64,000 nucleotides of DNA from assembly GCA_002842515.1 (NCBI GenBank), contig PHDC01000002.1, forward strand, positions 316,744-380,743. Reading direction: 5' to 3'. The DNA comes from Bacteroidetes bacterium HGW-Bacteroidetes-5 (GTDB lineage: Bacteria; Bacteroidota; Bacteroidia; Bacteroidales; UBA932). Shown here piece by piece: positions 33,254-47,902 of this stretch (position 1 is its first letter; each line of letters starts with the position of its first letter). A model generated the notes under the pieces. The model was not told the DNA's origin, ran no database searches, and saw only the letters and a program-made list of their open reading frames with translations. Both the position numbers and the translations under genes were made by a program.

Positions 33254-33316
33254 TTCGGATTTTTTTATGAATTTGCAAAGATACGATTATTCACTACTTT
33301 TGAAAAAAAATTGATT

Positions 33317-33859
33317 ATGGGATCTTCAATCAGCGCCGTTGATATTATTCTGCTTCTCTGTTTTATCCCTGCAGTTATTGGGGGAATCAAGACAGGGTTT
33401 GTAAAACAGGTAGCTGCCCTGGCAGCTCTTATCCTAGGAGCCTGGGCAGCCTGGTACTTCTCCGACTTTTTTGCCCACAATGTAAATATCTGGCTGGAGA
33501 CAAACAGGGTTTTAACGCAGATTATTGCTTTTGCCGCTGTTTTTCTGGTAGTAATCCTATTTGTTAATATGATAGGACACGCAATCCACGCTTTGATAAA
33601 CCTGGTTCTTCTGGGATGGCTGGACAAACTGCTTGGTGTTTTCTTTGCATTTTTAAAATATGCATTTGTATTGAGTATGGTAATCTTCTTATTGGAGTCC
33701 CTCAACGATCTTTACCCTTTCTTACCGATGGAGACCATTTCTCAATCTAAGCTTTATGGTGTAATCTCCTCCATTGCTCCTGCAATTTTCCCTTTCATAG
33801 AAAAACTTCACGAGACAGGAAAAGAGGTTGGTACAATGTTATCTAACCTTCAATTTTAA
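33317..33859 (+). CDS. CvpA family membrane protein
   Basis: SAVDIILLLCFIPAVIGGIKTGFVKQVAALAALILGAWAAWYFSD; ORF listed from 33311, ATG near 33317 in ORF context. Confidence 0.75.
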   Translation: MGSSISAVDIILLLCFIPAVIGGIKTGFVKQVAALAALILGAWAAWYFSDFFAHNVNIWLETNRVLTQIIAFAAVFLVVILFVNMIGHAIHALINLVLLGWLDKLLGVFFAFLKYAFVLSMVIFLLESLNDLYPFLPMETISQSKLYGVISSIAPAIFPFIEKLHETGKEVGTMLSNLQF

Positions 33860-34030: not shown

Positions 34031-34116
34031 GGAAAAGGCTCCTTGTTTGTGCGGGAGGTCTCTTAGAGGCAGAAGAGAGTCGGGAGTGATTAGAGGTGTC
34101 TTTTCCTTTTTTCTTT
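34031..34116 (+). promoter_or_regulatory. Structured leader / terminator-like element upstream of the exporter
   Basis: GGAAAAG (34031-34037) pairs with CTTTTCC (34100-34106) followed by TTTTTTCTTT; internal CTCTT/AAGAG pairing. Confidence 0.4.
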
Positions 34117-34150
34117 AAGTTTTGTTGAATTAATTGTGGAGGGGTTTGGA

Positions 34151-36220
34151 ATGTGGTTATCGGTTAAAATTAAACAACAGAGTAAAAGTGATTGTGGTGC
34201 AGCTTCATTGGCATCAATTGCTGCACACTACGGTATGAGAGTTCCTCTTTCAAAAATACGGCTTTATAGCGGTACAGATTCTGGAGGAGCAACACTAAAA
34301 GGGTTAGTTGAGGCTGCACGGAGGTTCGGTTTTCTGGCGGATGGATTCAAAGGTGAACGGGAGTCCCTGGATAAAATCCCCAAACCTGCCATTATTCACC
34401 TAAAAAAAGATGACGGATATCTTCACTATGTGGTACTTACAAAAAGCAGTGCCTCTTACTTCCACATTATGGATCCACTGGATGGTGAAATCCAGCGTGT
34501 ACCAAGAGAGTCTCTGCTCCGGGAGTGGACCGGTTATTTAATACTCCTCTCACCTTCCGTTGAGAGTAAAAAATTGAATTTTAAAGAGGAGACTCAAATC
34601 TCTTTAATTCAGTGGATAAAAGGCTTATTGGCAAAGCGTTGGATAGTTCTTTCCGGAGGAATTTTGCTCTCAGTTCTGCATCTTGTCTCATCACTTGCAG
34701 TAGCAATCTTTATTAAGTATCTTCTGGACGATATTATACCCTCCGGAGGTGGAGATCAACTGGCAAAAGTATCTATTTTAATGGCTCTTATCCTTCTTCT
34801 CTCTATAGTTATATCAATCACCCGAAGTGTTATAAACATTAACATTTCGATAGATACAGACAGAGAGCTAATAACCAACTATCTGCGGCATCTTTTCAGG
34901 ATTCCTCTACCGTTTTTCAATACTATTAAAACCGGCGAATTAACCTCGAGAATATCTGACATATACAGGATTCGTAATCTTATTGCCGAGACCCTTCCCG
35001 AGGCCGTTGTTGCCGTTGTGACCCTTTTAGCATCACTGGCTCTGCTTTTTCTAACCGAGAGCAAACTAGCTCTGCTTTGTCTTGCCTTCATTCCTCTATA
35101 TCTGACAATTTATATAATTCACGACAGGCTTAATAAACCTCTAATGAAATGCTCAATGGAGAGGGCATCCCGCTTTCAGAGTGTTGTCATTGAGAGCTTA
35201 AGATCCGTTTCAACTATAAAAAACTTTAGTAATGAGCGCTTTGCAATGGCAAGAACCTCGCTTAAACTGGAAGAGCTCAACAATACCCTCTCTCAAACCG
35301 GGAAAGTATCAATATATGCCGGCGCAGCTGCAGAGATGGTCTCTAAATTTATAATGCTTGTAATCCTTTCGAGTGGAGGGGGAGCAGTTATCGCCGGAGT
35401 GCTGACAATAGGAGAGCTGGTATCATTCTATACTATTGCGGCTCTATTTACTGCTCCGCTTCAACAAATAGCCTTTGCAATCTCATCTGTGAGAGAGGGG
35501 AGTGTGGCGGCAACCAGGTATCTGGATATTATGGCCCTGGAGGAGGAGTGCAGCGGCAGCGGAGTGAGAGTAAGAGCAGACAACCTGGTGGTTAGTAATC
35601 TCTCCTACAGCTATCCGGGCAGAGAGAGGCTCTTTGAAAATATATCTTTTAAAATTGGGCGAGGTAAAATCTTACTGTTACGCGGGGAGAGCGGATGTGG
35701 TAAAAGTACTTTAGCCGCAATTCTTATGATGCATATGAGACCGGAATGTGGCAAAATTGAAGTTAACGGTAAAAGTATATTTGACTTAGACCCTGTAGGA
35801 TGGAGAGGCAGTGTGTCAATTGTTCCTCAAAATCCCGACCTCTTTGGCAATACCATAAAAGAGTGTATAATGGATGGGGTCGAATCAAATGATTACAGAG
35901 AGATTTACGAAGAGTTGTGTATGGAGCTGGAGCTTAATAGAATTTTTGAATCGCTCCCCAATGGTGACGCTACTCACCCAGGAGAGGGGGGCTCTCTCCT
36001 ATCCAGAGGAGAGCAACAACGGATTGCGTTTGCCAGAGCCGTTGCCAGAAAACCTTCGTTTCTTATACTTGATGAAGCGACATCCTCTATGGATATACGG
36101 TCCGAAAAGATAATTGAGAGGGCAATAATGAAGCTTAAAAAAGAGGGTACTCTTATACTTATTATCTCTCATAAGTCAAGATCCTGCTTAATTGCAGATG
36201 AAATAATTGATATGAGATAA
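34151..36220 (+). CDS. Peptidase-containing ABC exporter (C39 peptidase, TM, ATPase)
   Basis: C39 Cys motif KQQSKSDCGAASLASIAAHYG, His DGYLHYVVL, Asp FHIMDP; Walker A GESGCGKST, signature LSRGEQQR, Walker B FLILDEATSSMD. Confidence 0.93.
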   Translation: MWLSVKIKQQSKSDCGAASLASIAAHYGMRVPLSKIRLYSGTDSGGATLKGLVEAARRFGFLADGFKGERESLDKIPKPAIIHLKKDDGYLHYVVLTKSSASYFHIMDPLDGEIQRVPRESLLREWTGYLILLSPSVESKKLNFKEETQISLIQWIKGLLAKRWIVLSGGILLSVLHLVSSLAVAIFIKYLLDDIIPSGGGDQLAKVSILMALILLLSIVISITRSVININISIDTDRELITNYLRHLFRIPLPFFNTIKTGELTSRISDIYRIRNLIAETLPEAVVAVVTLLASLALLFLTESKLALLCLAFIPLYLTIYIIHDRLNKPLMKCSMERASRFQSVVIESLRSVSTIKNFSNERFAMARTSLKLEELNNTLSQTGKVSIYAGAAAEMVSKFIMLVILSSGGGAVIAGVLTIGELVSFYTIAALFTAPLQQIAFAISSVREGSVAATRYLDIMALEEECSGSGVRVRADNLVVSNLSYSYPGRERLFENISFKIGRGKILLLRGESGCGKSTLAAILMMHMRPECGKIEVNGKSIFDLDPVGWRGSVSIVPQNPDLFGNTIKECIMDGVESNDYREIYEELCMELELNRIFESLPNGDATHPGEGGSLLSRGEQQRIAFARAVARKPSFLILDEATSSMDIRSEKIIERAIMKLKKEGTLILIISHKSRSCLIADEIIDMR

Positions 36221-36318
36221 CAAATATTAGATAATTGATATAATAACAATGGAGGGTGCACACTCCCGGCGAATATCTGCACGCCGTTCAATGCAGAGCT
36301 ATTAAAAAACAAATTGCT

Positions 36319-36507
36319 ATGAAAGAGTATGTGAAAGATGAGTGGGGTCTGAGAACTCTTAAAAAAGACGAGATGCTCACAAGGGGCGGGCTTACGTTTC
36401 GGGAGCTTTGGAATTTTCTGAACATCTTGGGTGAAGCGGTAAAAAAGGCTGAGAGATACTGGCCCAAATTCAGGGATGGTTTTCAAGCCGGATGGGAGGC
36501 AGCGTGA
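36319..36507 (+). CDS. Candidate secreted-peptide precursor 1 (double-glycine leader, bacteriocin-like)
   Basis: MKEYVKDEWGLRTLKKDEMLTRGG | LTFRELWNFLNILGEAVKKAERYWPKFRDGFQAGWEAA; immediately downstream of C39 exporter; GFQAG (GxxxG). Confidence 0.6.
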   Translation: MKEYVKDEWGLRTLKKDEMLTRGGLTFRELWNFLNILGEAVKKAERYWPKFRDGFQAGWEAA

Positions 36508-36722
36508 TGGACAATATTACTGTAAATCAAAATGGTCTGGTCTCGTTGACAATGAGTCAGATGTGCAGAATAACCGGTGGATCCGGGGGTTGGGACTACG
36601 AAATTGCCGAGTATCTGGGCAGAGGTGCCGGGTATAGTATTAAAAAGATGTGGAAGCTTTTCCAATTTCTGAGTAAGAACCTATATGAGATGCAGGCAAA
36701 TACGCAGGTAATTTACAAGTAA
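36507..36722 (+). CDS. Candidate secreted-peptide precursor 2 (canonical double-glycine leader, bacteriocin-like)
   Basis: MDNITVNQNGLVSLTMSQMCRITGG | SGGWDYEIAEYLGRGAGYSIKKMWKLFQFLSKNLYEMQANTQVIYK; L-12, M-7, I-4, G-2, G-1 pattern; TGATG overlap with gene 1; GRGAG (GxxxG). Confidence 0.7.
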   Translation: MDNITVNQNGLVSLTMSQMCRITGGSGGWDYEIAEYLGRGAGYSIKKMWKLFQFLSKNLYEMQANTQVIYK

Positions 36723-36785
36723 AATTCCCGTAAAATTACACTTTAAAGGGAGTTTGTAATAGAAAAAAAATTATCTTTGCGCATT

Positions 36786-38105
36786 ATGAAAATTAATTAC
36801 AAACTCCCATTATTACTACTTCTGATTATCCCCTCACTTCTCTCAGGACAAAAGAGATGGAGTCTTCAGGAGTGCATAAGATACGCCTGGGATAACAACC
36901 TGCGCATTAAACAGCAGGAACTCTCAATAGAACAGAGTGAAAACAATCTTGCCCAGGCAAAGCTTAACTATATTCCAACCCTAAATGCATCTGTGAGTCA
37001 CTCAATGAACTGGGGTCGCTCTGTGAATATCCAGGATTTGGAAATTGTAGAGAACAAACTATCTCAAAGCACAAGTGCCAGCGCACGAGCGGCAGTGAGT
37101 ATCTTCGAAGGTTTCACCCGAAAGAATGACATCAAAAGCAAAGGCATAGTTGTTGAGGTGTCACTACAGGAGGTTGAACAACTCAAAAACAACATATCGG
37201 TTGAGATTGCACGCTCCTATCTTCAGATTCTTCTCTCAAGAGAGATTTTAAAAACTGCTCAGGAGAGTATTAAGAGCGTAGAGGAGCAACTTGAGAGGGC
37301 AAACAAGCTTGTAGATGCCGGCAGCGTAGCTTACAGCACGCTTTTAGAGGTGCAGGCACAACTTGCCGCAGAGAGATTTCAGGTTGTAAACGCAAAGAAC
37401 CAGTTGAAGAGCTCTCTTCTGACGCTCAAACATCTTCTGGATCTTGAAGGTGATGCAAGTTTTGATATCGAGGATGTAAATGTTGATTTTCTTATAACCG
37501 GGTTCTCCGGTGAGGATGTTGATGAACTTTTCCGTTTATCCCAATCTCTGCCCCAAATTAAGAGTGCAGAGCTAAATTTGGAAAACTCCGGCCTTCAGCT
37601 CGCAATTGCAAAGGGAAGAGCTCTCCCGTCGGTAACCTTCTCCGCAGGCTACGGCTCCTATTACAGCGACAGCAGAGAGCAGGCTTTCTTTGATCAATTT
37701 AACGAAAACAGAAATCCATCTCTGGGATTTGGTTTGAATATTCCGATATTCAATAACCACCAAATAAAAACTTCCGTAAAAAATGCCAAACTGGGGGTAA
37801 GAAGTGCTACCATTGAGGTAAAAAACAGACAACAAATACTTTACAAAGAGATTCAACAGGCAAATAATGATGCTGTCTCTTATTACGAAAGATATAAAGC
37901 TTCCGAGAGTAATGTGAAGGCTATGGAAGAGTCATTCCGTTATGTTCAGCAAAAATTTGATATCGGCATTTTAAGTGCCACCGACTATACAGTTGCAAAA
38001 ACAAACCTGTTTAAAGCTCAGTCGGAATTTTATCAATCTAAATATCAATATGTTTTCCAATTGAAAATCCTCGATTTTTATAAAGGAAAATCAATCTCTC
38101 TCTAA
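36786..38105 (+). CDS. TolC family outer membrane protein
   Basis: Signal peptide, RWSLQECIRYAWDNNLRIKQQELSIEQSENNLAQAKLNYIPTL, second TolC repeat. Confidence 0.9.
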   Translation: MKINYKLPLLLLLIIPSLLSGQKRWSLQECIRYAWDNNLRIKQQELSIEQSENNLAQAKLNYIPTLNASVSHSMNWGRSVNIQDLEIVENKLSQSTSASARAAVSIFEGFTRKNDIKSKGIVVEVSLQEVEQLKNNISVEIARSYLQILLSREILKTAQESIKSVEEQLERANKLVDAGSVAYSTLLEVQAQLAAERFQVVNAKNQLKSSLLTLKHLLDLEGDASFDIEDVNVDFLITGFSGEDVDELFRLSQSLPQIKSAELNLENSGLQLAIAKGRALPSVTFSAGYGSYYSDSREQAFFDQFNENRNPSLGFGLNIPIFNNHQIKTSVKNAKLGVRSATIEVKNRQQILYKEIQQANNDAVSYYERYKASESNVKAMEESFRYVQQKFDIGILSATDYTVAKTNLFKAQSEFYQSKYQYVFQLKILDFYKGKSISL

Positions 38106-38116
38106 ATGTAAAAGCG

Positions 38117-39379
38117 ATGAATTTTAAAAAAAATATCAAGTGGATTATTGCCGTTGTACTTGTAGTGATAGTAGTACTTGCAGTAATCGGGAGCAAAAAT
38201 AACAAGAGCGCAATCCAGGTGACAACCGAGAAGATTGGCAAAAGCAGCATAATTGAGGTAATTCCCGCAAATGGCAAAATTAAACCTGTTGTGGAGGTGA
38301 AAATCAGCCCTGATGTCTCCGGTGAGATTATTGAGCTCCACTTTAAGGAGGGTGATTATATCCGCAAAGGAGACCTTATTATTAAGATCAAGCAGGATGT
38401 ATATATCTCAATGAGAGAGCGTGCAGAGGCCTCCCTTAATTCTGTTAAGGCACAACTTACTCAAATGCAGGCTCAGTTTTCTCAAATTGAACAAACCTAT
38501 ACCAGGAATAAAACACTTTTTGATCAGAAGGTAATTTCTGAATCTGAATACGAGAGCATATACTCTCAATATAAGGTTGCCAAAGAGCAGATTAAAGCTG
38601 CCGAATTCAATGTAAAGAGTGCAGGCGCCACTCTTAAAGAGGCGGTTGAAAACCTCACTAAGACTGTCATATATGCACCAATGGACGGAATTATATCTAA
38701 AATGAGCGTGGAGAAGGGTGAACGAGTTGTTGGTACAAGTCAGATGGCAGGTACAGAGATGCTGCGTATTGCAAATTTTGAGCAGATGGAGGTTTTAGTG
38801 GATGTGAACGAGAACGACATAATACGAATTGAGAAGGGAGATACTGCCACAGTCGAAGTTGATGCCTACCCAAATCGTAAGTTTACCGGAGTTGTTACCC
38901 AAATTGCAAACTCAGCCAAGAATATCGGATCTTCAATAGACCAGGTAACAAATTTTGAGGTTAAGATATATCTGGTCACCGAATCATACTCAGACCTTGC
39001 ACAGGATGGTAAAAATCCATTCCGCCCCGGAATGTCTGCATCCGTTTCAATTCAGACATCCAGAGTTGAGAACGCACTCTCAATACCTCTTCAATCTATA
39101 ACCACCCGTTCTGACCTTATTGCAGATAGTGTTAAGGCAAAGATGGGGGTTAATGAGTCACTTGAGCAAGTTTTCGTTGTTAAGGAAGACAACTCTGTTG
39201 AGGTTAGAACAATCACAACAGGAATTCAGGATCTAACTAAAATAGAGGTGGTAACAGGGCTTAACGAGGGAGATATAATTGTAACAGCGCCATTCTCTGC
39301 TATCAGCAAAACATTGAAGCGGGAGTCAAAGGTAAAGATCGTTACCGAAGAGATGCTTAAGAAACCAATTAAACTTTAA
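38117..39379 (+). CDS. Periplasmic adaptor / membrane fusion protein (HlyD/MacA-like)
   Basis: Single TM, VSGEIIELHFKEGDYIRKGDLIIKI lipoyl motif, coiled coil, beta-barrel region. Confidence 0.9.
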   Translation: MNFKKNIKWIIAVVLVVIVVLAVIGSKNNKSAIQVTTEKIGKSSIIEVIPANGKIKPVVEVKISPDVSGEIIELHFKEGDYIRKGDLIIKIKQDVYISMRERAEASLNSVKAQLTQMQAQFSQIEQTYTRNKTLFDQKVISESEYESIYSQYKVAKEQIKAAEFNVKSAGATLKEAVENLTKTVIYAPMDGIISKMSVEKGERVVGTSQMAGTEMLRIANFEQMEVLVDVNENDIIRIEKGDTATVEVDAYPNRKFTGVVTQIANSAKNIGSSIDQVTNFEVKIYLVTESYSDLAQDGKNPFRPGMSASVSIQTSRVENALSIPLQSITTRSDLIADSVKAKMGVNESLEQVFVVKEDNSVEVRTITTGIQDLTKIEVVTGLNEGDIIVTAPFSAISKTLKRESKVKIVTEEMLKKPIKL

Positions 39380-40116
39380 TGTCAACTGCAGAACCACTAC
39401 TGCTCTACATTGAAACCAGTACTGAGGTTTGCTCTGTAGCAATATCCTCTTCAGATGTGGTTTTATACCGAAAAATTGTTCGGGAACCAAAAGCTCACGC
39501 CCGAATAATTGCCCCTATGATTGAAGATCTTTTCAAGGAGGTGGGCTTTGGAATTGAGAAGTGTGACGCAGTTGTTGTGAGCGAAGGGCCCGGCTCATAC
39601 ACAGGATTGAGGGTCGGAGTTGCTCTGGCTAAAGGGCTCTGTTTCGCATCCAGAAAACCTTTGATATCGGTAGGATCTCTGGATTTACTGGCCAATTTGG
39701 CATCAGATATAGTTCTCTCACAAAAATCGTCTCAAGAGTACTCCGGTGTAGAGTCAATAGTTCCTATGATTGATGCCAGAAGGATGGAGGTATATACTGC
39801 AACCTATACAAAAGATGCTCAGAGGTTGACACCGGTTGAGGCATTGGTCGTTGATGAAAATAGTTTTGCAGTTCTCCTTTCTAAGGGAGTTACCTTATTT
39901 TGCGGAGATGGATCGGCAAAAGTAAGTACAATAATTGACCATCCAAATGCAAAATTCCTCTCCATAGACTCTATAGCAGAAGGTATGGTAAAGAGAGCAG
40001 TAACGAAGTTCCGAGAGGGACTCTTTGAAGATGTTGCCTATTTCGAGCCTTTCTACTTAAAAGATTTTAGAGCAGGAGTCTCAAAAAGAGGTCCGCTCAA
40101 TATGAAGAGCAGATAG
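39379..40116 (+). CDS. tsaB: tRNA threonylcarbamoyladenosine biosynthesis protein TsaB
   Basis: LLYIETSTEVCSVAIS; VVVSEGPGSYTGLRVGVALAKGLCFA; TAATG overlap with preceding gene. Confidence 0.92.
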   Translation: MSTAEPLLLYIETSTEVCSVAISSSDVVLYRKIVREPKAHARIIAPMIEDLFKEVGFGIEKCDAVVVSEGPGSYTGLRVGVALAKGLCFASRKPLISVGSLDLLANLASDIVLSQKSSQEYSGVESIVPMIDARRMEVYTATYTKDAQRLTPVEALVVDENSFAVLLSKGVTLFCGDGSAKVSTIIDHPNAKFLSIDSIAEGMVKRAVTKFREGLFEDVAYFEPFYLKDFRAGVSKRGPLNMKSR

Positions 40117-42752: not shown

Positions 42753-43673
42753 TTACCTTAATTTTTCAAAATTCTCCGGCAGAATTGTCATTGCGCTCTC
42801 TCTATCTCTGACAAGCTGCTCTTTGAGCTCCTGCAAAGATGCAAATTTATGTTCATCCCGAAGCCTTTTTACAAACTCAATTTTAAAAGAGAGCCCGTAA
42901 ATATCATCTTCAAAATCCAGAATATGAGTCTCAATGGTCTTTTCACTCATATTTGAGACTGTAGGCCTTGTTCCGATATTTGTAATTCCTCTGTAGCTCT
43001 TTCCCAAACTCTCTGCCCATACTGCATAAACACCATCAGCCGGCAATAGTTTAAGAGGTTCATAAAGCATAATGTTGGCTGTGGGAAAGCCGATGGTTCT
43101 CCCTATCCTTTGACCCTCGACCACTACCCCCTCCAATCCGTAGCGATATCCAAGCATAATGTTCGCCCTCTCTATGTTTCCTCCAAGAAGTGACTCCCGA
43201 ATTTTTGTTGAGCTGATTATAGTACTATCTGAATCATTTCCGCTAACAAACTCATCTACCCTCACAGGGGTAATCCCTACAGAGTTCGCTATCTCAAACA
43301 TCTGCTCCTGAGTCTGATCAAGATCGCTTCCCACCCTATGATCGTAACCAACAACAAGGGTAGTCACTCCGTAGCAATCCTTTAAATAATTCCGGAAGAA
43401 CTGCTCTGTGGTTTGCCGGGCAAAATCCCTGTCAAAAGTGAGAACGTGAACATCGTCAATGCCCATCGAGTGAAGAAGTTTTCTCTTCTCCTCAAGAGAT
43501 GTAAGTAGCCTGAACCTGGCTGCATCCTGTTGCAAAACGGCTCTGGGATGGGGCCAGAATGTAATTACCGCAGATCTCCCATTCTGTTCTTTCGCAAGAG
43601 AACATACCCTCTCCAGCACAGCGGAATGACCTCTGTGAACTCCATCAAAGAATCCTGTACTGGCTATAACCAT
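42753..43673 (-). CDS. ribF: Bifunctional riboflavin kinase/FAD synthetase
   Basis: GFFDGVHRGHSAVLERV; GRTIGFPTANI; GITNIGTRPTV. Confidence 0.93.
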   Translation of the reverse strand: MVIASTGFFDGVHRGHSAVLERVCSLAKEQNGRSAVITFWPHPRAVLQQDAARFRLLTSLEEKRKLLHSMGIDDVHVLTFDRDFARQTTEQFFRNYLKDCYGVTTLVVGYDHRVGSDLDQTQEQMFEIANSVGITPVRVDEFVSGNDSDSTIISSTKIRESLLGGNIERANIMLGYRYGLEGVVVEGQRIGRTIGFPTANIMLYEPLKLLPADGVYAVWAESLGKSYRGITNIGTRPTVSNMSEKTIETHILDFEDDIYGLSFKIEFVKRLRDEHKFASLQELKEQLVRDRESAMTILPENFEKLR

Positions 43674-46600
43674 TTCACTAAATCAAAATCCTGTCGGTGC
43701 GGCAATTTTGGGTTCTTTGCATATAGCCGCCCCGCCAGACTGAATGCCCCGGCAGTATCGGCAAGAATTGAACACCTGTATTTTGCTGCTCCCGAAACAT
43801 ACTCTATAAATTCAAAATCTATGGTCTTTACAATATGAGGGTTGCCCTCTATTCCATTCTCTGCAATAATCATCTCAACCCCTATCTCATCGTGTTTGAG
43901 GTCTCCGGTTGAGATTATTATCTCTGCCGTAAACTCCTCGCCCAGAGAGATGTCTGTTCTCGTATTGTCCGGTTTGTTATAGCTGATTACCTCAATAAAA
44001 GGCCATTCGTTTCTCACCCGTTTTTTCCATTGTGCAATCTCCCGGGCAAGTGCAAAATCATCTGCAGCTATTTCTATATGTCTCTTTTTTAATTTATTGT
44101 AGAAACGATCCAGATAGTCACTCAACATCCTGTTGGTGGTAAAGTTGCCTGCTACCTTCGCAATTGTATTTTTTATGATCTCAATCCACTCGACAGGAAG
44201 TTTACTCTTACCGGTAACATTATAAAACAGAGGGGTAATCTCATTCTCCAACATATTATATATTGTTGCCGCATCCAGTTCATTCTGAAAATCCTGATTT
44301 TCATATGTTCTCTCAAGTGGGAGTGCCCATCCTGCGCCCTCTTTATACCCTTCAACCCACCAACCGTCAAGCACAGAGAAGTGCATAACTCCATTCATTA
44401 CAGCCTTTTCGCCACTTGTTCCGGATGCCTCAAGTGGTCTTGTAGGTGTGTTCATCCAGATATCAACTCCCTGCACCAGGTACTTAGCTAGAGTTATATC
44501 ATACCCCGGTATAAAGAGAACCTTTCCAATAAACTCAGGCATTACAGAGATCTCAACGATTCTCTTTATCAGATCCTGACCGGCTTTATCGGCAGGGTGT
44601 GCCTTACCGGCAAACAGAAACTGCACCGGACGCTTGGGATCATTTACAATCTTCTTAAGTCTCTCAAGATCGCGGAAAATGAGGTGGGCACGTTTGTAAG
44701 TTGCAAATCTTCTTGCAAAACCAATTGTGAGCACATCGTCCCTGAGAGTCTCTTTTATCTTTACAATTTGCTCCGGAGTGTAGTGTGTGGTTGTGCTCTG
44801 GTTTGAGAGGGTCTGCTTGATAATATTTATAAGCTTGCTCCTTAGTTTTTTGCGAACATCCCAAATTCTGGAGTCATCTATTTTGTAGATGCCTTCAAAA
44901 CAGCTCTTATCATAGTGGTGGCTCTGGAATTTCTCACCAAAAACCTCTGAGTGAATCTCTTTCCATTCCGGAGCTGTCCAGGTTGGGTAGTGTACACCAT
45001 TTGTCACATAACTTACGTGGAGCTCCTGAGGAAGATATCCCGGCCAGAGTGGAGAGAGAATATCTCTGCTAACCTTGCCGTGAAGCCAGCTCACTCCGTT
45101 AATCTCCTGAGAGAGATTTGCCGCCATATTACTCATTGAAAACTTCTCATTCGGGTCGGCGGGGTCTATCTTTCCCAATGACATCATCATCTCCCAGCTA
45201 ATCTTCATCCTCTTGGGATAGTGAGAAAAGTATCCTCTCAGAATATCCTCGCTAAAGGCGTCGTGACCGGCCGGAACAGGTGTATGGGTGGTATAGAGTG
45301 ACGAGGCTCTCACAACCTCGGTTGCCTCAGCGAATGTAAGTCCGTTCAAGGTTACATACTCCCGCAATCTCTCCAGCCCAATAAATGCCGCGTGACCTTC
45401 GTTGAGGTGGTAAATATCTACCTCCCTGCCAAGAGCTCTCAGAGCCCTAACCCCTCCTATCCCCAGCAGCATCTCCTGCTTGAGACGATTCTCCCAATCT
45501 CCCCCATAAAGATGGTGTGTAATAGCCCTATCTTCGGGCAGATTATCTTCGTGGTCTGTATCCAACAGAATTAGCTCTGTACGGCCTACATCTACCCTCC
45601 AAAGCCTGGCAGTCATATTTCTTCCGGGAAGAGCAATAACTACAGTGGTCCATTTGCCCTGTTCATCTCTTACAGGGGTTGCCGGAATCTTCATAAAGTC
45701 CTGTGGTTCATAGAAGGCAACCTGATCTCCCTGTGCAGATAGTTTTTGAGTAAAGTAGCCATATCTGTAAAGAAGTCCTACGGCAGTCAAAGGCACCATC
45801 ATATCGCTGGCCTCTTTTAAATAGTCTCCGGCAAGAACTCCAAGGCCTCCCGAGTATATCTTAAGAGATTTATCCAACCCGAATTCCATACTGAAGTATG
45901 CAATTTTCACATCGTTTTTATCGCATTTTGCAGATATATACTCCTGAAAATGGTCATATACCGCATCTAGTTTCCGCAGGAATTTTGAATCACTCTCAAG
46001 CTCCTGATAGCGCTTAAGCGACAACATATCCAGCAGATGTATCGGATTTCCCTCGCAGACCTCCCACAAATCTTTATCTACCATCTTAAAGAGCTCTATT
46101 GCATCTTCATTCCAACACCACCATAAATTTCTTGACAATGTCTCCAGATGCTCAAGTCTTTTTGGGAGCCTCTTGTTAATAAGAATTTTACTCCAGATAG
46201 GTTTATTGGCAACATCTTTTTTAAAATCGGAGTGCTCTCTCTCATCTATATTTACCGGGAAAGCGCCTTTATCATTAATCACTTTTGCAATTGCAAGAGA
46301 GTATGCCTCTTTGTAGTAGACTATCTGGTTATCCCAGAGCGCAATCTTTGATATATCTCTGGCAGCAAGGTGCAAGCTCTTTCTCTTTTCATCTGATAGA
46401 TGACTTATGTGTAGAATCTTTTTTACTACACCCTCTACAACCTTTAAGTAGTTAAAGTCTCCTCTCTCAATAATCTCAATTGCCTCCTCCTTTCTCTTAG
46501 AGTGATCTCTCACCCAAAGGCCAAAGCCTGTAAGGGAGGTGGTTATTGTGGGAACTCCGAAAGCCAGACTCTCCAGAGGGGTATACCCCCACGGCTCATA

Positions 46601-47902
46601 ATAGGATGGAAACACGGAGAGGTCCAGACCGCAAAGAAGTTGGTAATATGTGAAGTTGAAAATCCCGTCATTCCCGTTGAGATAGGATGGTATAAAGAGC
46701 AGCTTAACCAAATCTCCCTCTCTGTTAAGAAGGTTTAGTTCATTCACTCTCTTAAGAACCGGATCCCAACTTGGTTCATTTAATGTATGAGATGTATTGG
46801 TGGTATACTCTCCGCCGTTTTGAATTTTGTTTAACAGATCTCTGTCGGCCCCTTTGTGCCCGGCAGGAACGAAGATCCACGCTATAATCTCTCTCTTTAG
46901 ATCTTTGGAACCGTTAAGAGCGCCCAGAGCATCCAAATATACATCAATACCTTTGTTTTTGTATTCGTATCTTCCGCTTATACCAACCATAAGAGCGTTA
47001 TCGGATACCGGAATTCCGGTCATTAGCCGGGCAATCTCAATCAACTTTTTCTTTGCACTTTTCGCACAAATCTTATACTCATTCTCTTTTGGAGTAAAAC
47101 TGTTTTCAAAGCCGTTTGGTGTCACCACATCTACCTTCCTGCCAAGAAAGTGGCTGCACTCACGGGCGGTTATATCCGAAACTGTAGTGAAAACATCTGC
47201 CTGGTTTGCAGCAATTTTCTCAAGTGAGTGCTTGGATACCACATTAAACTCCTGCGCCTTCTCCTCGGGAGAGTACTGGGTCATATTGTCATAGAGGGGA
47301 AGATTATTTCCGGCAATCGACCTTCCGACAACCGTTGCGTGAGTAGTGAAAACTGTTGCAACAGGCAGGTTTGTGGTTTTAAGATAGAGAACTCCGGCAC
47401 CTGTCATCCACTCGTGAAACTGAGCAACTGCCTTGTGATGAGGAGCAAGGTTGAACTTTACATAACTCTCTATAACTTTACCGGTTGCATAACCAAATAG
47501 AGTGCTCTCTAAATAGTCCCAGTGTCCGGCTATTGAGTCCAACCCGTATTTTATCCAGAACTCTGTCAGTATCTCATCTTTTTTAGAGAGAAATGTACTG
47601 AAGTCTACCAGAATTACTATTGGGGTTCCTGAAACATTCCATCTCCCCACTCTTATCCGGAGCCCCTCTTGCGCAGCTTTTCCTCTCCAGGCACGCAAAA
47701 GATTCTGGTCTTCAAGAAATTCAGGATTTTTTTCGGTATCCCTCCATACGTCGGGCCCAATAAGTATATGATTGTTTTGAAGCTCTTTAGAAAGATTTAA
47801 TGCCTTAGTGGCTATAACTGTATGTATCCCTCCAACTTTATTACACACCTCCCAACTAACCTCAAAAAGATAATCGGGTGATACAAACTTTTTTTCTGAC
47901 AT
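43664..47902 (-). CDS. Glycogen synthase (GT3-like) / alpha-glucan phosphorylase (GT35) fusion
   Basis: N-terminal YLFEVSWEVCNKVGGIHTVIATKA GT3-like; C-terminal phosphorylase YFSMEFGLDKSLKIYSGGLGVLAGDYLKEASD. Confidence 0.88.
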   Translation of the reverse strand: MSEKKFVSPDYLFEVSWEVCNKVGGIHTVIATKALNLSKELQNNHILIGPDVWRDTEKNPEFLEDQNLLRAWRGKAAQEGLRIRVGRWNVSGTPIVILVDFSTFLSKKDEILTEFWIKYGLDSIAGHWDYLESTLFGYATGKVIESYVKFNLAPHHKAVAQFHEWMTGAGVLYLKTTNLPVATVFTTHATVVGRSIAGNNLPLYDNMTQYSPEEKAQEFNVVSKHSLEKIAANQADVFTTVSDITARECSHFLGRKVDVVTPNGFENSFTPKENEYKICAKSAKKKLIEIARLMTGIPVSDNALMVGISGRYEYKNKGIDVYLDALGALNGSKDLKREIIAWIFVPAGHKGADRDLLNKIQNGGEYTTNTSHTLNEPSWDPVLKRVNELNLLNREGDLVKLLFIPSYLNGNDGIFNFTYYQLLCGLDLSVFPSYYEPWGYTPLESLAFGVPTITTSLTGFGLWVRDHSKRKEEAIEIIERGDFNYLKVVEGVVKKILHISHLSDEKRKSLHLAARDISKIALWDNQIVYYKEAYSLAIAKVINDKGAFPVNIDEREHSDFKKDVANKPIWSKILINKRLPKRLEHLETLSRNLWWCWNEDAIELFKMVDKDLWEVCEGNPIHLLDMLSLKRYQELESDSKFLRKLDAVYDHFQEYISAKCDKNDVKIAYFSMEFGLDKSLKIYSGGLGVLAGDYLKEASDMMVPLTAVGLLYRYGYFTQKLSAQGDQVAFYEPQDFMKIPATPVRDEQGKWTTVVIALPGRNMTARLWRVDVGRTELILLDTDHEDNLPEDRAITHHLYGGDWENRLKQEMLLGIGGVRALRALGREVDIYHLNEGHAAFIGLERLREYVTLNGLTFAEATEVVRASSLYTTHTPVPAGHDAFSEDILRGYFSHYPKRMKISWEMMMSLGKIDPADPNEKFSMSNMAANLSQEINGVSWLHGKVSRDILSPLWPGYLPQELHVSYVTNGVHYPTWTAPEWKEIHSEVFGEKFQSHHYDKSCFEGIYKIDDSRIWDVRKKLRSKLINIIKQTLSNQSTTTHYTPEQIVKIKETLRDDVLTIGFARRFATYKRAHLIFRDLERLKKIVNDPKRPVQFLFAGKAHPADKAGQDLIKRIVEISVMPEFIGKVLFIPGYDITLAKYLVQGVDIWMNTPTRPLEASGTSGEKAVMNGVMHFSVLDGWWVEGYKEGAGWALPLERTYENQDFQNELDAATIYNMLENEITPLFYNVTGKSKLPVEWIEIIKNTIAKVAGNFTTNRMLSDYLDRFYNKLKKRHIEIAADDFALAREIAQWKKRVRNEWPFIEVISYNKPDNTRTDISLGEEFTAEIIISTGDLKHDEIGVEMIIAENGIEGNPHIVKTIDFEFIEYVSGAAKYRCSILADTAGAFSLAGRLYAKNPKLPHRQDFDLVKWL

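Follow-up and report, generated by a model that had tools for sequence, protein, structure and literature searches.

The cassette of an exporter, peptide 1 and peptide 2 described in this study is probably (with a probability of roughly two in three) a two-peptide, class IIb-like bacteriocin system of Gram-negative bacteria, as judged by analogy with known pairs. The gene anatomy, the leaders, the intact protease residues of the exporter, the joint conservation of both peptides, the fixed GxxxG motifs and the purifying selection on the cores are established here. The initial annotation, which had proposed a two-peptide double-glycine (GG) bacteriocin with its own type I secretion genes, was right on the anatomy and largely right on the interpretation, the antibacterial activity being a prediction. 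The system is filed as working like class IIb bacteriocins and not as a member of that class, because the immunity feature of the class is missing from most loci and killing is inferred only.

The exporter, the peptide genes and the putative export route

The locus lies on contig C2 of a 2.8 Mb Bacteroidales genome, and in the window (the whole stretch of 64,000 nucleotides that was analysed) all genes from cvpA to the tsaB-like gene are on the plus strand. The exporter gene (34136..36220) opens with a GTG, an in-frame ATG at 34151 being the likelier start, and encodes a putative peptide-processing and peptide-exporting protein with the Pfam domains Peptidase_C39 (PF03412, E 3.9e-31), ABC_membrane (PF00664) and ABC_tran (PF00005). 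The catalytic triad of the C39 domain had been read as intact, and the comparison bore this out, as Gln14, Cys20, His97 and Asp113 were identical, and the Walker and H-loop residues invariant, in 32/32 homologues. Within the genus, the exporter evolves faster than tolC and the adaptor (40-46% vs 63-79% identity to the window copies). The exporters of the close relatives L062 and L063 have an apparent insertion near residue 480, between the membrane and ATPase domains, which was read from alignments splitting at that point and which the window copy lacks. Elsewhere in the genome of L001 (G000:C1:676516-676896), a second C39 exporter is adjoined by a 49-residue GG peptide (METTFEKLNDQEMINVVGG...) that is unlike peptide 1 and peptide 2.

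Downstream of the exporter lie two tiny genes on the plus strand, which encode the precursors of peptide 1 (36319..36507; 62 aa, with a 24-aa leader ending in TRGG and a 38-aa core) and peptide 2 (36507..36722; 71 aa, with a 25-aa leader ending in ITGG and a 46-aa core). The TGATG stop/start overlap reported between them is exact at 36505-36509, and within the genus this translational overlap suggests that both peptides are made in balanced amounts. The leaders and core lengths were also as first read from the sequence. The peptide 2 leader is canonical (L-12, M-7, I-4, GG), and that of peptide 1 has L-11, E-7, M-6 and L-5, with one residue fewer between the hydrophobic positions and the GG, a shortening common to most homologues. 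The double glycine is near-invariant in the family alignments. Neither core had been recognised as a known family, and indeed no Pfam/NCBIfam-type library model matched the window's own copy of either peptide. A profile search of the PDB returned only coiled coils, designed helices and isoprenoid synthases, which were judged to be composition matches. That the two peptides are remnants of one larger protein was ruled out because each retains its own GG leader everywhere.

The peptide genes are followed by those of a TolC-family outer-membrane channel (36777..38105, plus strand; PF02321, E 5e-54) and a periplasmic adaptor of the RND/MacA type (38117..39379, plus strand), so that exporter, TolC and adaptor are adjacent. 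The adaptor scored 179 bits with TIGR01730 (cut-off 94.9) and 63.6 bits with the HlyD model TIGR01843, below its cut-off of 208.65; the Bacteroidales MAG L093 encodes an adaptor 96% identical to it. The block is flanked upstream, at the insertion site, by a gene for a CvpA-family membrane protein (33311..33859, plus strand; PF02674, E 2e-27), whose participation would be conjectural, and downstream by a TsaB-like housekeeping gene (39379..40116, plus strand; PF00814, E 6e-25) that is syntenic in nearly all of the neighbourhoods compared. The locus had been described as a complete type I secretion set of ABC exporter, adaptor, channel and two cargoes. The tolC and adaptor genes do follow at once, but both are older than the cassette, and any dedication to it is putative. 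An Rfam scan of the window gave one tRNA and no other match. Further downstream, at 43664-47902 on the minus strand, a 1412-codon ORF resembles by eye a glycogen synthase fused to a glycogen phosphorylase.

Distribution and history of the cassette

In a first survey, 150 genomes of the family were searched with peptide 2 and the exporter, and 40 neighbourhoods were read. The conserved block, ileS(-)/cvpA/exporter/peptide 1/peptide 2/tolC/adaptor/tsaB/resA(-), occupies the same chromosomal place in all members of the genus and in many other genera. Both peptides lay between the exporter and tolC in 31/31 syntenic loci read, and both were also present in 36/36 named loci having exporter and tolC, which are partly the same genomes under public names. 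With profiles, peptide 1 was found in 167/300 and peptide 2 in 166/300 family genomes, 164 of them shared; a single peptide occurred in 5/300, at marginal E-values in 4 of these. Two adjacent, co-occurring genes for secreted peptides, as expected of class IIb systems, are therefore seen here (164 genomes with both vs 5 with one). The pair is present in about half of 26 genera and in 25/25 sampled members of the genus. A lack of the peptides beside C39 exporters in relatives had been set as a refuting test, and the outcome was the opposite, both peptides being kept there throughout the clade. Ca. Coprenecus is a member of this clade, which we take to be the GTDB family UBA932, and the adaptor tree places Ca. 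Egerieousia with the clade.

The history of the cassette was followed on a tree of 100 adaptors, on which its presence required 3 changes vs 21.6 in shuffles, a number that one gain and two losses (L115 and L121) would explain. In the outgroups, tolC, adaptor and tsaB are present without any exporter, and in the cassette-less loci L106, L110, L115 and L128 cvpA stands directly before tolC. These layouts and cvpA-tolC junctions indicate that exporter and peptides entered as a single cassette. The data are thus compatible with a single gain upstream of a pre-existing tolC-adaptor pair, followed by vertical inheritance with rare losses; the locus belongs to the vertically inherited core of the clade and is not a sporadic island. 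Moreover, the cassette stays with tolC and the adaptor where cvpA and ileS have moved away (L072, L082, L086 and L130), which favours, without proving, one joint export path. At the two places of loss, an ORF resembling by eye a tyrosine integrase lies upstream of cvpA-tolC in L115, and ORFs resembling by eye SusC/SusD lie upstream of tolC in L121.

Order-wide matches to peptide 2 outside the family fell mostly within longer open frames (325-390 codons) that probably encode polyprenyl synthases, and were rejected. Neighbouring GG peptides whose cores are GxxxG- or GxxxA-like were found in other families of Bacteroidales, at L205:6704-7290, L208:4310-4660 and L209:6089-6453; these pairs are divergent, similar in plan and weakly matched by both profiles, and no C39 exporter was found on the pieces read. 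Judging from these sequences, two-peptide systems may extend more widely through the order. Searches of plasmids with peptide 1 and of phages with peptide 2 gave no match.

Features of the cores and comparison with known systems

The core of peptide 1 carries a GxxxG motif in its C-terminal YWPKFRDGFQAGW and that of peptide 2 one in LGRGAGY. The motifs named in the initial annotation (GFQAG and GRGAG) are both present and turned out to be the most conserved part of each core. In two family alignments, the only core columns with more than 85% glycine are, in each peptide, two glycines four apart (conserved at 100% and 97% in peptide 1, and at 87% and 100% in peptide 2). A strict GxxxG was found in 30/31 copies of peptide 1 and 27/31 of peptide 2, the exceptions retaining one glycine. 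Homologues range down to 11-35% identity to the window copies, and the leader GG and the paired core glycines are the best-conserved columns. The chance of a spacing of four in both cores is about 0.2% (34/703 x 41/990), an estimate that lets two conserved positions fall anywhere along each core (38 and 45 residues) and ignores that all are glycines.

The cores had also been described as aromatic-rich and mildly cationic. This holds for the window copies, which are cysteine-free, with 21% and 20% aromatic residues and net charges of +1 and +2 for peptides 1 and 2; neither trait extends to the whole family, in which the mean core charge is about 1.9 for peptide 2 but about 0.1 for peptide 1. 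A single helix was predicted by AF2 for each peptide (residues 27-61 in peptide 1 and 29-65 in peptide 2), beginning just past the GG, at moderate confidence (pLDDT 67-72 overall). By hydrophobic moment, the cores were amphipathic beyond shuffles in 30/32 copies of peptide 1 and 24/32 of peptide 2. Amphipathic helical cores of 25-50 residues, a trait of class IIb, are thus seen in both predictions. In addition, core dN/dS was about 0.02-0.2 between close relatives, that of the peptide 1 core being well below 1, and both cores are under purifying selection.

Every known class IIb bacteriocin is described as keeping a GxxxG motif in both of its peptides, where it is essential, and UppP/BacA is the receptor of lactococcin G-type peptides (PMC12765074). 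Here, too, a motif of this type is found in both peptides, together with GG leaders and a C39 exporter whose protease residues are intact. For comparison, the sequences of lactococcin G and of plantaricins E, F, J and K were used, each of which matched a PDB entry of that name end to end; some of these references were picked once a resemblance had been noticed. Profiles were built from the cores only and controlled with shuffles, glycine-preserving shuffles and 13578 natural background peptides. The peptide 1 profile scored 13.3 bits with PlnJ (reached by 0/2000 shuffles and 0/13578 background peptides) and 4.8 bits with LcnG-beta (27/2000 and 13/13578), and the peptide 2 profile 6.7 bits with LcnG-alpha (0/2000 and 15/13578) and 7.5 bits with PlnK (6/2000 and 9/13578). 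Most crossed pairings gave no score; PlnJ also scored modestly with the peptide 2 profile, PlnE somewhat with both and PlnF hardly. The core profiles pick out the partners of known pairs weakly but selectively. The matches span short stretches of 8-25 residues centred on GxxxG, which supports a similar mechanism, with beta-like and alpha-like roles divided between the two peptides, and is not proof of common descent. The library model most often matched by peptide 1 homologues was NCBIfam NF038034 (lactococcin G-beta/enterocin 1071B), in 5/31 and below its cut-off (best E 0.0012; 15.1 bits in L085 vs a cut-off of 37), and no library model matched the peptides above its own cut-off.

The locus resembles lactococcin G, enterocin 1071 and enterocin C, class IIb systems of Gram-positive bacteria, in its adjacent GG precursors, its C39 ABC exporter and the GxxxG in both helical cores; the FxxGFxxG of peptide 1 is like that of LcnG-beta, and peptide 2 resembles LcnG-alpha. 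Unlike that group, it has a Gram-negative host, a TolC and an adaptor, mostly no immunity gene, and a gene order of beta-like then alpha-like, with a similarity below the NF038034 cut-off. In plantaricin JK, PlnJ KNFWSSLRKGFYDG matches the motif of peptide 1 and PlnK YAIGYAFGAVERA that of peptide 2; this system belongs to a lactic acid bacterium and has shorter cores, dedicated immunity and an inducible, sporadic locus. Using a GxxxG-type rule, a Hungate1000 survey predicted 21 two-component clusters, with most of the survey clusters in Bacillota, and no published description of the present pair was found in the literature searched.

A dedicated immunity gene, expected in class IIb operons, was found neither in the window nor in most loci read. 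In one genus (L084, L091, L104, L105, L112 and L146), a gene of about 240 codons for a CPBP/Rce1-like membrane protein lies exactly between peptide 2 and tolC. The CPBP/Rce1 family includes known bacteriocin immunity proteins, and by family this gene is a plausible candidate for an immunity protein. The bacteroidetocins, class IIa-like peptides of Bacteroidetes, share with the present system the GG leader, the C39 exporter, the Bacteroidota host and the lack of an immunity gene, and their producers are self-sensitive (PMC6671954). They differ in being single four-cysteine peptides whose genes lie in horizontally acquired regions beside those of a thiol oxidoreductase and a membrane protein, as opposed to two cysteine-free cores; the four cysteines are absent from the window's cores and both accompanying genes from the block.

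Proposed function and its alternatives

As a class IIb-like bacteriocin, the system would work as follows. Both precursors would be recognised via their double-glycine leaders, and the C39 domain of the exporter would cut after the GG during export. The peptides would exit via a TolC-type channel, probably bridged by the adaptor encoded downstream. Once released, the unmodified helical cores of both peptides would pair through their GxxxG faces, insert into the inner membrane of the target cell and permeabilise it, docking probably on a membrane-protein receptor. The narrower claim of a true class IIb toxin of the lactococcin G/plantaricin JK kind, which a Gram-negative clade would have fixed vertically as a core pair lacking any cognate immunity gene, is given slightly less than even odds; in that case targets, self-protection and outer-membrane entry must differ from the lactic-acid-bacterial prototype. 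Several points weigh against a bacteriocin. The cassette is vertically inherited and near-universal in its clade, unlike most bacteriocins; the missing immunity gene in most loci is a real gap; peptide 1 is not cationic family-wide; and the similarity to class IIb is short, weak and below every curated cut-off.

Since such inheritance is unusual for a weapon, a signalling role has to be weighed. The main rival is a secreted two-peptide signal, in which kin would sense the exported helical peptides in population or surface signalling and no competitors would be killed. GG peptides act as pheromones in Gram-positive bacteria, and near-universal vertical presence, purifying selection and the absence of an immunity gene would suit such a physiological role. 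Nevertheless, we consider it unlikely: Pfam annotation and neighbourhood reading found no receptor or regulator gene in the conserved block, the cassette was dispensable in L115 and L121, and the strict GxxxG of both co-occurring partners is a feature of helix packing for which single-peptide pheromones have no need.

Peptides acting on the producer's own envelope, in a membrane or efflux homeostasis tied to the housekeeping TolC-adaptor pair, would explain why the cassette sits on this much older, slowly evolving pair and remains there where cvpA and ileS have moved. Such a role is distinctly improbable, as the outgroups and both loss cases have tolC and adaptor but no cassette, GG leaders together with a C39 exporter imply that the peptides leave the cytoplasm, and the cores resemble the partners of class IIb pairs. 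A contact-dependent, surface-held killer like Cdz of Caulobacter is less probable still. Cdz is likewise a Gram-negative two-protein killer with small GxxxG proteins and a type I-like exporter, and its authors compare it with class IIb; but its GxxxGxxxG zippers are extended and consist of small hydrophobic residues (75% of the mature protein), and it has surface aggregates and the immunity protein CdzI (PMC5380434), whereas here one family-conserved GxxxG per core stands in an amphipathic, charged and aromatic helix. Finally, chance ORFs or decayed remnants behind an exporter, as the tiny genes and the lack of a library match for the window copies might suggest, deserve practically no credence, being refuted by conservation across 13-14 sampled genera and strong purifying selection; the peptides are not chance ORFs.

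In conclusion, class IIb two-peptide bacteriocins are regarded as a trait of Gram-positive bacteria, and the Bacteroidales have yielded few known small bacteriocins (PMC10352776). What is new here would be the lactic-acid-bacterial two-part plan as a stable, inherited locus of a Gram-negative clade of gut Bacteroidales. The pair spans gut, rumen and digester Bacteroidales and offers more than 160 natural variants for studies of helix pairing, receptor choice and immunity. It may be a source of narrow-spectrum agents against Bacteroidota, and it raises the question of why a peptide weapon should be inherited like a housekeeping gene.
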